Source: Dictyophora rubrovolvata (lineage: Eukaryota; Basidiomycota; Agaricomycetes; Phallales; Phallaceae). From it: a stretch of DNA of 64,000 nucleotides. The stretch is from NCBI GenBank assembly GCA_029959195.1, contig CP114117.1, positions 1,612,001 to 1,676,000 of the forward strand, given 5' to 3'. The position numbers and the translations under genes were made by a program. The notes under the pieces are model-generated. The model did no database searches. It saw nothing but the letters and a program-made list of their open reading frames with translations, and was not told where the DNA came from. This document shows positions 15,373-32,033 of the stretch, one piece after another; position 1 is the first letter of the stretch; each line of letters begins with the position of its first letter.

Positions 15373-16844
<1,472 letters not shown>

Positions 16845-19560: not shown

Positions 19561-22371
19561 CTACATATGTCTATTATAAAAGAGCAAATAAGCTGCCTTG
19601 TCGTCACCGAAATCCTTCGAAAGTAGATCATCCACCGTTATATCTTGCACAGAGTCATCATCCAATCGTATCCACCCTTCTTGACCAATTCCGCGAGGGT
19701 CGGGGTGTAGAACATCTAGAGTATAATGCCCTCCAGTAGCCGAATTGCCATGATGATTCAGAACTGCAAATGTGTAAGTCAGACCGTTCCGAGAGAAACT
19801 GGCTCAGAATAGATCATACCCCCAAACAGTTTATATTTATGTTTTTGAAAACGTCGAGAGGTTGCCAAAACATCTGCGAATAAAGAGTCAAAAGAACTTC
19901 GTATTATATAGCAGAAAGCTGCCCGTACCTCTGGGTATTACGAGTTCGGGTGAAAACGTAATCTTCTTACTTAGCTTTACGACATCATTAACAGCGGTAT
20001 CATACAAAAATCGCTTCAGATGTAAAATTAATATTGGTGGAAGGTTTTCAACCAAAGTTTGTTGATTCGCGTCGACTTGGCCTTTCGTAGCTGAGGACAT
20101 TTGTACGGTTCTTTGCTCTGTCATATAACGTAAAGCATCCTCGATTGTGCCAACAGAATCGGGCTATAACGAAAGGAATTCAGTATATGCCAGGTGAATC
20201 AATATCAAATATTCCTGCCTGAATGTCTAACTGAAGGCGACTCCAAGGATCAATCATTGCGCTCTCACGGGATCCAGGGACTTTTAACGTCGTACGAAAC
20301 TTGCCATTGAATATTCGACTAATAGGCGAGTCCGTAGCCTTATGCTAATTGTGATGTTCAGAACAAATAAACATCTCTAGTCGTAGATAAAATACTGACT
20401 GTGCGGGTAAGTACAGCTTTATTTTTTCGGCCTATTTCTTGCCAGCCGTCACCGTTGTCATTTGCAGCGCCATCTGTTAGAATATCTGCAGCAATCACTC
20501 CCGACGTCTGGTTTTCTAGCAATAATGAAAATTCGTCTTCTAAAGTATCCAAATAAAATCCCAGAAATTCTTCCGCGTCTTCTTGTTGTCCTCCCTGGGA
20601 CAAGATTGTGAATTTATTGGGGAAAAAGACATCTAAAATAAAGCCTACCCTCATAGAGTCAAATCGTTTTTTCTCTTTCAATGCTTGATAAATAACAGTG
20701 GGTATGAACGGCTCATCTCGAATAGTTTCCTGTTCAGTCATCTCCTGGACGCCCTTGTCAGATTCGAGGGGACGGAATTCTTGCGTGAGTTCGATTCTAT
20801 AAAAAAAGTCAATATTATGTCTCATGTTGCTCGGGAAAAAGCACCTACGTTGCGTTGATTAATGGGGTGGAAACCGGCTCTTTAGGGTTTTGGTACTTCT
20901 CGAGCTCGGTGAACAGGTTATAAAATGGAGGACAGTACATTAATATCTGAAGTACAGTGTTAGCAAAACACATGTTTCCGAGATTAATCAAGCCACGAGC
21001 GCGGAGATTCGATAATCGTCCAGATAGAACATTGGACGACGTCAGATGACTCAGCATGTTGGGAGCTCGAATGGGTTTGGGAGCTAGCTCTCGAGGAGGA
21101 ATTGCAGGGACGGAAAAGCCTTGAATAGAAGACATAGGCAATCCGTTAGTGGAAGCCTTGCCGTTTTCCTGGGGCCGAAGCAGTGAAGCCCAAGACTTTT
21201 TGACAGTTTGGGAAGGTTGAGGTAAGGGTTGTGTAACAGAAATTGGGGATGACTGGAGTACGGGTTCGGGTTCGGGTTCAGATTCGGGCTCGGGTTCGAG
21301 TTCAGGTTTAGGTTCAGGCTCGGATTCGGTGACATTTTGTGGGAGGGATGACCCGAGTTGTAGTTTAGGCCGTTCTTCAGCCGCGTCGGATACTGTTTTG
21401 GCCACTACCGATACGGAGGTTATAGAAGAGCGAGGTGATTCCAGTTGGGGAGTTTCAGCTCCCGTTGACGTCTCGGGCGTCACTACGGACGCTAAACTGG
21501 GTTCAGGCAGTATAGGTTCTTGTTTGTAACTAGTGGACTCGTTGTTGACCAGGTCAATGGTTGACGTGTGGAACACGGTTTGATCGGAGGTTGGCGACGA
21601 AGAGGTGGCATCCAGGAAGGAGATAAATGAAGCTGGTGGTCTGGCAGTATATGATATTGTTACTCCGAGTGCTCTTTGCACCCTGGGCCGTTCCAATTGA
21701 AGAGCAATGCCTTTGTCAATGTTTCGACGAATAGGGAGATTGGCAGGGTCATTTATGTTTAGAGTTTGTGTGATACCTTGAGGGATGTCGTCGTCTTTTT
21801 CAGGGTGAACTAGGGAAGGTTCAGATGTGAACTGAGCCTCTAGTTCTGATGTCACTGGGGTTAGAGGAATCTGGGCTGTGTGAAGTGATGGAGAGCTATC
21901 ATAGAGGGGCATGTGAGGTTGTTTTGGTAACACAGATTGAGGATAAGGAGTCTGATATGCATACGCCAGATGCTGTGGCGGTGGTGGTGGAGAGAAAGGA
22001 GGAGTCCACATATCGTGTGAAGGATAATATTCGGGTGGTAGGTGGTAAGGATCCATGACTGCGTGGTGGGGAGGAAATATCGGTTGCGATTGATAATAAT
22101 GCATTTGCGGTTGTTGCTGAACATGGGGAGGAAACCGGCGCTGGCGATGTCCTTTTCTGAAATTCCGTTGTTGAGGTATAAATTCTGGGTGTAGAGAGTT
22201 GTTGCGATGAGGGCTATGGTTATGATGGTTCATGTTCCCTTGAGGGAGTTGATTCGGGGGGTAAGGTGCTAGGTGCTGGTATGAGGACTCGGGTCCAGCG
22301 TATGGTGGGGAAGAAGGATGATAGGGCAAGGAAGAAGGCCCCGCTTGAGGGTATGATTGCGAACTAGCCAT
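19561..22371 (-). CDS. UBP3: Ubiquitin-specific protease, UBP3/USP10 type
   Basis: Deubiquitinating cysteine protease; the yeast orthologue works with Bre5 in trafficking, ribophagy and stress. A long disordered N-terminal half of about 400 residues is rich in Pro, Gln and Ser and contains an acidic Glu-Pro repeat (21255-21330). The catalytic domain follows: the Cys box ARGLINLGNMCFANTVLQIL with Cys as nucleophile, then GGQQEDAEEFLGFYLDTLED, LPPILILHLKRFLYD and the His box NHHGNSATGGHYTLDV. A closing segment reads GWIRLDDDSVQDI then AYLLFYNRHM. Catalytic Cys, His and Asp positions are all present. The single long first exon (20845-22371) precedes several small ones. Length and layout fit USP10/UBP3. 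Confidence 0.93.
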
Positions 22372-22704
22372 ATAATCTTTATCCTATAAACCAGTTTCAG
22401 TTGGTTCGTCATGAAAACGAACGAGCAAAACGGTCTGACCGTTGCTAAGCCCAAGTCGTGTGAGATTAAAACGGTAATGGTGATTTACTGCAAGTGGGTA
22501 GTACAATTAAATATTCCACTATAAAAAAAATAATTTGCTAACATTACGATTTAAGAACCACAGAACCTCAGTTTCAGCGACAATGCAGCGAAGAGAAAGA
22601 ACGCGCTTTGCGCAGATACTAGCAGTTATTGCTGAATACAACAAGCGAGAGTAGAACTTAGAACTCCGCTCAACTTTTTTTCCTACTTAGTCGTAACTTG
22701 AAGA
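22372..22704. other. Divergent spacer between UBP3 and fibrillarin
   Basis: About 330 bp of shared upstream sequence; no coding signal or clear TATA box. Confidence 0.5.
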
Positions 22705-27433: not shown

Positions 27434-30115
27434 TCATTCAACATCAGCGTGATCATTGTCTACCACGACAGATTCATTCGGCTGCTCTGGTGTTTTGGGC
27501 GTTTCACCATCAAATGTACGCCTAGGGGAATGCAGCCCAACTTGATATAATGAACTAGCAGAGCGCGTAACTCTTAGCTGGTTAGAATTGGGCTTAAAGC
27601 CTAGAGGGGATGTTAATGGCATGGATTCCCATGGTGGATGCTGCGATGGCATTGATATACGAAGATTGAGACGGGAATAAGGATCCTTTAAGGATAATGC
27701 ATCGTGAGATGAAGCGTATCCCGCGAGAGAGTATATTCGACGAGATTTGGGAGCCGTTATGACTGTTCCGAAAGATGGTGGTATAGGATCGTGATAAGGT
27801 GCTGAAGAGGAGAATAGGGACCATGTCGGTGATTTGGAAGGCAAGTTCGACGGGGAATCTGTGTCAAATACTGATGCGGATGATTCGGAGTTGTATAGAG
27901 CCGATTTGACCTGAACAATATCATGTTCTAAATCACTGAGCTTTTTCTCGAATGCTTCGAGGTCATTATTATCAACGTTCGCGTCAAACAGCTGGTTCAA
28001 ATCCTCGGTCGATGTAGATGATTTGGAAGGAGGGAGAAAGTTATTGACAGTTTGCAACCCCCTTTTGATTCTTTCGATATCGGCGATATGTATTTCTAAT
28101 TCGACTCTAGCATCTTCGCAGTAGTCATCTAGTCTTAGGACAACGTTCAACAGCAAAGATCTCTGCGAATCCAGTACGTTTGCCTTGTCAAGAAGCAACA
28201 GCCTCAATTGCTGCAATGCTGAGTGACAGTCGGTGAAGCCCTTCTGCACCTTCTCACATTTTGGGTCTGTGGCATGCTGCTCTTCGAACAATATTTGCGA
28301 CTTCAGTGGATCGGCCACTTCTGGTGGACATTCTTGAGTGACTGGGTCTGAATTCAGAGTATGGTTTTCTGTTGACCCCGGAGAATCTTTTGAAGCCACG
28401 CCTATGTCTTCCGAATTTTCTGCAGGGTGAGTAATGGACCCAGATTGCGCTACATCGACATTTGCAGATGTACCAGAGTCGTCACTTGGAACCTCAGGAG
28501 ATACATTTGTTTGACCTTTTCGATCCAGCTTAGATATGATGGGTGCGGGCGCAGACAACTGAGGAGCATAACAATTGCCCAGCCTTTTGGCCAGTTCCAG
28601 GCGCTTTCCAGTCTCGATTTCCAATTCTGATTTCAGCGTTGAACATAGATGTTCTGCTAACAAAACATTCGACATAGACTCTGAATTTGAATCGTTCGAC
28701 TCTGAATAGTCTGACGATATGAGAACATTTCTGGCTTCTTCCATCATCACGTTATAAGTCGACAGCAACGAAGAAGATGGGGTTTGTTCTGCCACATTTC
28801 CTGAGGCAATCCTTAAATACCGGTCTTCCGCTCGTCGAATCCAGTTTGTAAGGCTTTCGAGCAATAGTTCCTCGCGAGAAACGTGCCGAAGCCTCAATGA
28901 GACCTCTCTTCGACGGCCAAAGGTTTCTCTGGAAATATCTTCTGTTAGCTCATCTAGTACATCCCTCATCTGAGATACCCGTGTCCGTTCTTCCCCCAAG
29001 GCTTTCGTGAGCATTTCTGATGTGGTCGATAAGGTAGCCAATGTGGCTGCGTGGCGGGTCTTTAATGATGAAACCGCTACTTGTAGAGTATCAATAGATG
29101 ATTGAGAAAAACGCCTGTGATAAATACGTTTATTATGGACTGTCTGAAAAGATGACGAAGACTGACATATATCGTGAGACCATTTTTTCGGCTGCATTAT
29201 CATCAGCTTTGTAACGGTCAATTTCCAGTAAAGCTTTGGCAAGCCTTTCACGGTCGAACCGACAAGTCTCCCGCTCGGCTTCTAAATCGGTGCGAGCAAC
29301 GGATAGCTCGTTGTGTAGATGTGCTATTTCGGTATGGAGGCTCGTAGTCTCTGCATTTGCTTCTGAAAGGAGCTGATGTAGAGATTTTCGGCTATGCTGG
29401 AAGGAGTCGAGAATGGCAGTCGACAAGCTATTCTCATCGCTAGCTGAGGAGGAGGAGGAGGAGGAGGAGGTGGTGGTGGTGGGAATTGGTGGGGTGTCGG
29501 GGTTCTTGGCAAGCGTTAAATCTCGCTGTAATGATCGAACCAACGACGCATAATCATTGATAACTGCCATAGCCATCTTGACTTCCTCTTCAGCTGCTTT
29601 ACAACGTACTGTCAAGAGGCTTTCTTTGGAAAGATATTCCTTCAGCAGGGTTCTGTTGCTGTCGATATTGCTCTGCATAAGTTTAAGTTCCACTTTGGAT
29701 TTGTTCAGCGTATGAGTCGTTTGCAAACATTCTGAAGTCTTCTGAAGCAAGGACTGTTCTGTAAAGGAGAGTTTGTCGGAGAGACGTCGCAAGGCTAATG
29801 ACAGCTCTGTTGTTTGACGAGAGGCCTGGATCGGCTCGACATTTGATCTCAAATAAGAAACTTCACGTTTGAGGATATCATTTTCCGTTTCTAATAGTTT
29901 TACGCGTCTGGAAGCGTCCGCTGCGTCTGAGCGGGCACGTTGCAGCTGGAGAGCGGAGACATGCGCTGCATGCTATACTAACAATTGGAAAATTGAGAAC
30001 ACGACGTTGATGCAACGTATAGATATAAATGCAGAAAAACACCTGCCTGGTAGTTCTCAAATGCCGAACGTAAACTTTTCAATTCCAGAGCAATAGGGTG
30101 GTCATTCTTGGACAT
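27434..30115 (-). CDS. Large coiled-coil protein, function unknown
   Basis: About 870 residues dominated by heptad-like helices. An N-terminal Met-rich start MSKNDHPIALELKSLRSAFE runs into a long coiled coil with QLQRARSDAADASRRVKLLE and RLSDKLSFTEQSLLQKTSEC. A Ser run encoded by GAG/AGG trinucleotides (29450-29480) interrupts it. A second coiled coil contains LGEERTRVSQMRDVLDELTE, and the C-terminal tail is disordered and Ser/Pro-rich, ending DNDHADVE. The first intron can be spliced two ways (GT donor within GCAGGT, or GC donor before it). The architecture resembles cytoskeletal, spindle-pole or septal-pore scaffolds, but nothing identifies which. Confidence 0.8.
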
Positions 30116-30290
30116 GATGCGGGCATGCCATGCGCGTGTTGTGAACACGCGCCGGAGTGACAGAGCGGAGTTACTTTTGCGGTTATTAGCCCTTTTTTTT
30201 CTTTTTTTTATATAAACCAGCCTCAGTTCTGCTTTTGCGTACAACGACGAGGACGATCTTCACCTATTTCATCGACAAAAGACATCGAGA

Positions 30291-31700
30291 ATGACGAGTG
30301 CGAGAGGATGCTTTAATTGTGGTGGATGCACGTCGATTCCTTTATCTTTGTTGCGCGGAGAATGCTGATCGGCGTACTGAATGCTTTTTCTTTTTTTATT
30401 GTTGAATTTGGGTTTAAATCACAATCAATGCGTGTTTTTGACTGGTCTCGTACTTGGTTTTGTGTTTTCTTCCGTCTCGTCTGTGCTGCTCCTCGTCGAT
30501 GCTCCTACAGTCGGGCACCAAGCCGCTCAATGTCCCAAGGCAGGAACGCCCACCTGGTAAGAGCCGTTCTGCATCTAACCAGAACTTGAACTTTGAAAAA
30601 TTGAGTGCATATACGTCAGTTATAACTGTATGTGTCTTTTAGCATCTCCATTTAGATATCGGCTGTTCATCAAGAAATTTCAGGCGGATTAGAGGGCCAT
30701 GTGTCTAGGGGTCCGCCAATTTCAATTAACATATCCATTTTCATTATGTATGCTTAAGGAATACGCTAGATTGCACGATGGAACCAAAAGCAAAGAGTTG
30801 CTACAAGTGTGGCGCAGAGTGAGTCGCAGTGATTGTTATCTCAAGTGTCTTTAGACTGAACCAGCGAAATGCAGGGGGCATATTGTTCGTAGTTGTACCA
30901 CTTTTTGACTCGACACGATTGATAATCATAGTGTCATCTCCAATACTCTAACGATCTCTCTTGTTGTTTCTAGTCTCGTGATTGTCAACAAGCGAACGAT
31001 AGCGGCTACGGCGGTGGTGGTGGCGGCGGCGGCTCATCGGGCGCCGAGTGTTATCGCTGCGGTAAAGTAAGTGTTCAGTCTCATCACCGGACAAAACTCC
31101 TAAAATATATCATACAAGGTCGGTCATATAGCTCGAAACTGCACCGATGCTCCCGGTGGTGGTGGTGGTGGTGGTGGAAGTAACAATTACAACAGTGGCT
31201 ATGGGGAAAGAGGATTCTCGCAAAGCAAGACTTGGTTAGTTTTGTCACATTGTAAAATTTCTTCCCTAACACCCCATGTCAGTTATACTTGCGGTGGAGG
31301 TATGATTAACCTTCTCATGACACAATGTGCATGCATCTTATATAAATCCTTGTCAAAGTCGGCCATTTGAGTCGCGATTGTGTTCAAGGATCAAAATGCT
31401 ACAATTGCTCACAGAGGTAAATGTGTATATCAAGATTTTCTGAATTCCTCCCGCTGAGATCAATAATTCAAGTGGACATATTAGTAAAGGTAATCCTAAA
31501 TTGGGTACGACTATCTGTTGCTTGGAATTGACCTTAATCCACCAGATTGCCCACTACCTCAAAAGCGAGCTTGTTATACCTGTGGCAGTGAATCGTGAGT
31601 CATCCCCTTATTTTACAGGGGGGAAAGCATGCTCATGGACATCCTCATTTATCTTAGTCATATCGCACGAGACTGTCCAGGCGCTGTCGAAGCTAGTTGA
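30291..31700 (+). CDS. GIS2: CNBP/Gis2-type protein with seven CCHC zinc knuckles
   Basis: Cytoplasmic single-stranded nucleic-acid binder linked in yeast and animals to translation control and RNP granules. The spliced protein holds seven CX2CX4HX4C knuckles: CFNCGGFGHQAAQC, CYNCGLEGHVSRDC, CYKCGAEGHISRDC, CYRCGKVGHIARNC, CYTCGGVGHLSRDC, CYNCSQSGHISKDC and CYTCGSESHIARDC. A Gly-rich linker separates knuckles three to five. About twelve short exons are needed, and splice phases agree at each knuckle. Intron 1 (30328-30510) has a GC donor. Knuckle 2 depends on an eight-base microexon at 30620-30627. Without it the second Cys pair is lost, which is strong support for it. The tail after the last knuckle is short. 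Confidence 0.9.
30620..30627 (+). other. Eight-base microexon of the CNBP gene
   Basis: The bases TTATAACT lie between an acceptor CAG (30617-30619) and a donor GTATGTG (from 30628). Joined to TG at 30555-30556 and GC at 30684, they read TGT TAT AAC TGC, that is Cys-Tyr-Asn-Cys, the start of knuckle 2. Flanking introns are 63 and 56 bases. Confidence 0.85.
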
Positions 31701-32033
31701 AAGTAAAACCTGGAGTTAAGCCTGAGTTTTTTTTCTAAAAAAAGAGAACAAAAAAGAACTAAGAAGAAGAAGAAATATCAATGGTTTTGAATCTCGCATT
31801 TACCTGCTTTATGTACAGTGTTTGTTCTTCTCGTCTATGCTACAAATACATTACTTGAAAAGACACTCGAGTCATATCTAAAAAAGAACGGTGCCATGCG
31901 ATGAACACTGCTTTGCAACTCGTATATTCATTTTCCAACGGCTCCGAGACAGTCGAGGCGTGGGATATAAGCCGACTGAAATTTGTCACGTCCAGTGATA
32001 AAGCGATATTCCACAGCTAAATTACTGGTGACA
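31701..32033. other. Spacer between CNBP and HEL2
   Basis: AT-rich 3' region of CNBP and upstream of HEL2; nothing else supported. Confidence 0.5.

Follow-up and report, generated by a model that had tools for sequence, protein, structure and literature searches.

An eight-nucleotide segment, TTATAACT (30620-30627, + strand), in the 64,000-nucleotide stretch of Dictyophora rubrovolvata DNA analysed here (the window, to which positions refer) is very probably a genuine, constitutively included coding exon of an intron-crowded gene of the CNBP/Gis2 type. This reading is built on the observed sequence, on the logic of its reading frame, on the near-uniqueness of the solution among the alternatives and on a product with seven zinc knuckles. 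The exon is ordinary in kind, tiny exons being already known from fungi, and it changes no general idea. It does provide a clean test case for annotation: an 8-nt and a 10-nt exon occur in one gene and each is required for a defined metal-binding motif, so that a gene caller missing them visibly breaks the protein.

A CAG acceptor precedes the segment and a GTATGT donor follows it. It thus has the properties of a microexon, that is, an internal coding exon of approximately 3-30 nt with splice sites on both sides, and it is predicted to code for Tyr-Asn together with parts of two Cys codons. On re-reading, the bases and coordinates that the initial annotation had given for the exon, its AG acceptor and its GTATGTG donor were all exact. 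When joined to TG upstream (30555-30556) and GC downstream (30684-30685), TTATAACT yields TGT TAT AAC TGC (Cys-Tyr-Asn-Cys), the predicted spliced order across exons 2-3-4 being ...CCCACCTG-TTATAACT-GCGGATTAG... Reading through the junctions gives TGT TAT AAC TGC GGA TTA GAG GGC CAT GTG TCT AGG G/AT TGC, or CYNCGLEGHVSRDC, a full CX2CX4HX4C knuckle; the earlier proposal that the exon restores these four codons, and with them a complete second CCHC knuckle, was in this way reproduced base for base. With the exon included, the 36-residue piece around knuckle 2 scores 43.6 bits in Pfam. A single copy of the 12-mer AGTTATAACTGT is present in the window, against an expectation of 0.01. The sole occurrence of the motif YAGTTAYAAYTGTRNGT in the genome is in this gene, but the same motif written backwards, used as a control, was also found once, so the single occurrence says little.

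Over the sequence read (29600-31800), exons were joined so as to satisfy the knuckle rule CX2CX4HX4C, which gave a gene of 13 predicted exons at 30291-31700 (+), with a coding sequence of 570 nt (189 residues) whose frame is open to the stop codon. Exon 1 (30291..30327, 37 nt) contains the start codon and the first half of knuckle 1, and exon 2 (30511..30556, 46 nt) contains the remainder of knuckle 1 and the first two bases of the first Cys codon of knuckle 2, ending in ...CCCACCTG at 30556. Intron 2 (30557..30619, 63 nt; GTAAGAGC...CGTCAG, donor GTAAGA) and intron 3 (30628..30683, 56 nt; GTATGTGT...TTTCAG, donor GTATGT) enclose the 8-nt exon 3. Exon 4 (30684..30710, 27 nt) begins GCGGATTAGAGG and supplies the remainder of knuckle 2 as far as the first base of codon 13, while exon 5 (30770..30818, 49 nt) ends knuckle 2 and starts knuckle 3. 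Exon 6 is a second microexon, GGGGCATATT (30875..30884, 10 nt), which forms the middle of knuckle 3 and completes CYKCGAEGHISRDC. The end of knuckle 3, a Gly-rich linker and the start of knuckle 4 lie in exon 7 (30974..31066, 93 nt); the remainder of knuckle 4, another Gly-rich linker and the first two bases of the first Cys codon of knuckle 5 lie in exon 8 (31119..31234, 116 nt). Knuckle 5 has its first half in exon 9 (31283..31299, 17 nt) and its remainder in exon 10 (31359..31416, 58 nt), where knuckle 6 starts, to be continued in exon 11 (31473..31489, 17 nt; middle of knuckle 6) and ended in exon 12 (31546..31594, 49 nt), which also starts knuckle 7. Exon 13 (31658..31700, 43 nt) provides the remainder of knuckle 7 and the stop codon. 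Four tiny exons occur in this gene: the 8-nt one, which is the smallest, and others of 10, 17 and 17 nt. Introns 4 to 12 measure 59, 56, 89, 52, 48, 59, 56, 56 and 63 nt, and the density reaches 12 introns per 570 coding bases.

Intron 1 (30328..30510, 183 nt) has at least double the length of every other intron in the gene and is of the GC-AG type (GAT/gcacgt...ctacag). When GT, GC and AT donors were tried, the only single intron found to yield knuckle 1 in frame was the one using this GC donor; a GT-AG alternative keeping knuckle 1 was not found. A microexon within intron 1 in place of the GC donor was also considered and rejected, the one open model lacking the knuckle.

The predicted protein carries seven knuckles, all CX2CX4HX4C, in 189 residues: CFNCGGFGHQAAQC, CYNCGLEGHVSRDC, CYKCGAEGHISRDC, CYRCGKVGHIARNC, CYTCGGVGHLSRDC, CYNCSQSGHISKDC and CYTCGSESHIARDC. 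Pfam zf-CCHC matches seven stretches, with an E-value of 1.8e-50 for the whole protein. Seven knuckles is the number typical of the CNBP/Gis2 family, and the product, a small protein with seven such knuckles, is probably a member; the CNBP label of the initial annotation agrees with this make-up and with the seven zf-CCHC stretches, the name being based on make-up and not on a tree. Among 26 listed matches to solved structures, those found are by name other knuckle proteins. Searches for relatives returned one stretch matching a pattern in the viral_contigs scan and 26 in the genome_contigs scan, of which tblastn confirmed none in either. Known members of the family are likewise small zinc-knuckle proteins, for which RNA binding is a feature (PMC6083090, in the part available), and the same text gives Cryptococcus neoformans two CNBP/Gis2 homologues, Gis2 and Znf9, in contrast to the one seen at exon level in the D. 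rubrovolvata genome; exon structure in the fungal genes is not among the things that text describes in the part available. Elsewhere, at locus L014 (1300-2075), translation by eye revealed a further gene for a knuckle protein, whose two CCHC knuckles lie together in a single long open exon. This gene may perhaps encode a branch-point-binding splicing factor (SF1/BBP).

The initial annotation had further supposed that automated gene callers would miss such an exon. In support of this, when the genome was searched in six frames with the zf-CCHC profile, none of the 27 matches listed at E <= 0.001 fell in the gene. All seven of its knuckles are interrupted by introns, an illustration of how a gene like this can go unnoticed when exons are searched one at a time.

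What omission of the exon would do can be read directly from the frame. Skipping gives TGG CGG ATT AGA GGG CCA TGT GTC TAG, that is, ...TPTW RIRGPCV followed by a stop, for 35 residues in all; a Pfam search with the 22-residue end of this product found no family at E up to 1. The frame shift that had been foreseen for skipping does take place, whereas the accompanying loss of Cys-Tyr-Asn does not occur as such: Tyr-Asn is lost and the first Cys becomes Trp. Retention of intron 2 leads to TGG TAA, an immediate stop, and retention of intron 3 adds 20 further residues beyond CYNC before a stop.

A rival reading is that of a regulated switch, in which occasional skipping or intron retention yields a truncated message that is destroyed, thereby setting the amount of protein. 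Eight nucleotides is not a multiple of three and skipping brings a stop after residue 35; in addition, a 20-nt Trichoderma microexon forming part of a zinc-binding domain is described as switched by glucose (PMC11121469, in the excerpt available). Matrices built without introns 2 and 3, and based on 9 and 10 introns, place the acceptor at 30619 first, a rank in favour of the modelled exon, and that at 30683 second among nine AGs in the scored stretch. Among nine GTs the donor at 30557 is second and that at 30628 third, which counts against it; the latter has 3.26 bits, a score equalled or exceeded by 18.8% of the 3,715 GTs on the window's + strand. Intron 2 also contains a competing GT, at 30615, whose score of 5.47 is above both proposed donors and lends a switch some support. 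By these ranks the splice signals are ordinary rather than strong, with a competing site present. Moreover, a hairpin at 30608-30636 can cover the exon and both splice sites (-7.0 kcal/mol, z -2.08, 9 of 200 shuffles being at least as stable). Its z, however, falls to -0.56, -1.02 and -0.16 in stretches of 46, 71 and 200 nt, so the hairpin carries little weight; as a candidate regulator over the exon it is weak in the 29-nt cut and gone in longer stretches. Inspection by eye also showed that the exon with its adjoining bases, CAGTTATAACTG (30617-30628), is a perfect 12-base palindrome, mostly because of the splice-site bases and the codons used for Cys-Tyr-Asn-Cys. We regard a regulated switch as quite unlikely.

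With constitutive inclusion of the 8-nt exon, knuckle 2 would be completed and the downstream frame kept, while skipping or retention of either adjoining intron would bring an early stop. The flanking introns (63 and 56 nt) fall within the 48-89 nt range of the gene's nine other GT-AG introns, and each would be short enough to be recognized as a unit (intron definition), in which case it would hardly matter how long the intervening exon is. The two introns are probably removed stepwise, one and then the other, because splicing factors at the 3' site (30619) and the 5' site (30628) would crowd on eight bases. That splicing takes place as modelled, in this order and constitutively, we infer from the sequence, and the mechanism itself from intron length and published precedent; intron definition in fission yeast was reportedly the subject of a study by Romfo et al. 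in 2000. The case bears on the pairing of short introns across almost no exon.

A different proposal is that a single intron, or some other exon, spans the gap, knuckle 2 being absent or altered in this species. Enumeration of the 127-nt gap (30557-30683), with GT donors and both introns of at least 40 nt, allows eight internal exons, three of them in frame (26, 14 and 8 nt); the CX2CX4HX4C spacing arises from the 8-nt one alone. A wider set, in which donors (GT or GC), acceptors and the internal exon (up to 60 nt) could move between a fixed exon 2 start and a fixed exon 4 end, comprised 639 splice models. Of these, 68 had an open frame continuing into exon 5, and two contained two knuckle motifs. 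The second of these two uses a 1-nt exon with GC donors, and both of its matches share one cysteine; it was set aside as an artefact. Models with direct splicing, with a retained intron or with displaced donors or acceptors were thus rejected, since among the enumerated models two separate knuckles appear only with the 8-nt exon, and the earlier claim that this exon is needed to build the second knuckle holds in the sense that it is the sole credible route found there. Five single-intron models are indeed open and in frame with movable ends, but all five lose knuckle 2 or fuse it with knuckle 1, none uses the donor at 30557 together with the acceptor at 30683, and the six other knuckles of the predicted protein are intact. 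A spliced product bridging the gap in some such way is very improbable.

How readily chance could produce the exon was gauged from 20,000 dinucleotide shuffles of the 127-nt gap, under the conditions of GT donors, both introns of at least 45 nt and no stop. An 8-nt exon giving CYNC arose once, one giving C-aromatic-x-C 84 times and one giving any CxxC 653 times. The fairest chance figure is the last, 653 in 20,000, because the exact CYNC residues were named after they had been seen.

One GC donor and very many introns for the gene's size could suggest a copy in decay, or an assembly error, with the exon arising by chance. This notion is hardly credible given seven intact knuckles, a frame open to the stop codon and no better copy at exon level in the 28.2-Mb assembly. 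In the exon-by-exon search of that assembly (11 contigs), the five matches with E < 0.001 were all exons of the zinc-knuckle gene itself. No second such gene was seen at exon level, the five own-exon matches extending to E 8.2e-5 and the next match having E 0.003 and 36% identity, although this kind of search could overlook a diverged copy whose knuckles are just as split.

The positions of the introns follow a pattern. All 12 cut knuckle codons and none lies in a linker, whereas the knuckles make up 52% of the coding length; random placement puts a mean of 6.3 introns in knuckles and reached 12 in 8 of 100,000 trials. Four pairs of introns occupy the same codon position and phase in two separate knuckles: 1 and 5 (codon 7, phase 1), 2 and 5 (codon 1, phase 2), 2 and 6 (codon 13, phase 1) and 3 and 6 (codon 7, phase 2). 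In addition, the same six bases hold a cut in six of the seven knuckles. With placement over the whole coding sequence, four pairs arose in 181 and the six-base cluster in 35 of 100,000 trials; with placement within knuckles alone, the corresponding counts were 5,699 and 1,440, so that the coincident pairs are not clearly above chance once introns are confined to knuckles. Since these statistics were chosen after the pattern had been seen, and the knuckle rule had served to build the exon model itself, they count as a lead. The positions would fit a history in which knuckles were copied along with their introns, and equally repeated insertion at like sequences, and the Gly-rich linkers may simply be younger. 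It is possible, if unlikely, that the 8-nt exon is a by-product of recurrent-register intron crowding in knuckle codons, and that its inclusion could serve as a fail-safe or as an on/off step shutting the gene by skipping.

The proposed exon resembles others from fungi. The P450 genes of Phanerochaete chrysosporium contain microexons, the shortest exon being 6 bp, and their small introns measure 45-55 bp (PMC1184071, in the part available). They share with the present gene very short coding exons and small introns; they belong, however, to another gene family, and that part of the text mentions no exons completing a metal-binding motif. In Trichoderma virens, Xlr2 has a 20-nt 'switch' microexon that was missed by annotation and varies with glucose (PMC11121469, in the excerpt cited above). 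Here too a small exon supplies part of a cysteine-rich zinc-binding domain, but it is 20 nt long, belongs to the Zn2Cys6 domain of a transcription factor and is reported to respond to glucose. Within the available parts of PMC3990503 and PMC4014442, the term microexon appears only as a setting of read aligners. No published report of this 8-nt exon was found in the literature searched on microexons, short exons and Gis2/CNBP, and one may exist elsewhere; the pair of terms CNBP and Agaricomycetes retrieved no literature linking the two.

A control from the same genome is the cytochrome c gene at locus L018 (1419-2101), which encodes a cytochrome-c-like product of 108 residues in seven exons; the fifth exon measures 14 nt and the final coding piece 9 nt. 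Its 14-nt exon is the sole in-frame GT-AG choice in a gap of 128 nt and gives ENPKK. The likeness is that of a tiny internal exon in a conserved gene with short introns on both sides; the exon is larger and there are six introns. With two genes looked at, tiny exons are therefore not confined to the zinc-knuckle gene.

As for the surroundings of the zinc-knuckle gene, ten frames of the window were scanned against Pfam, and eight gave no match at E <= 0.001. Of the remaining two, the frame at 20848-22383 (-) contains the beginning of a ubiquitin hydrolase (UCH) domain and that at 15506-16396 (+) is a DEAD-box helicase.
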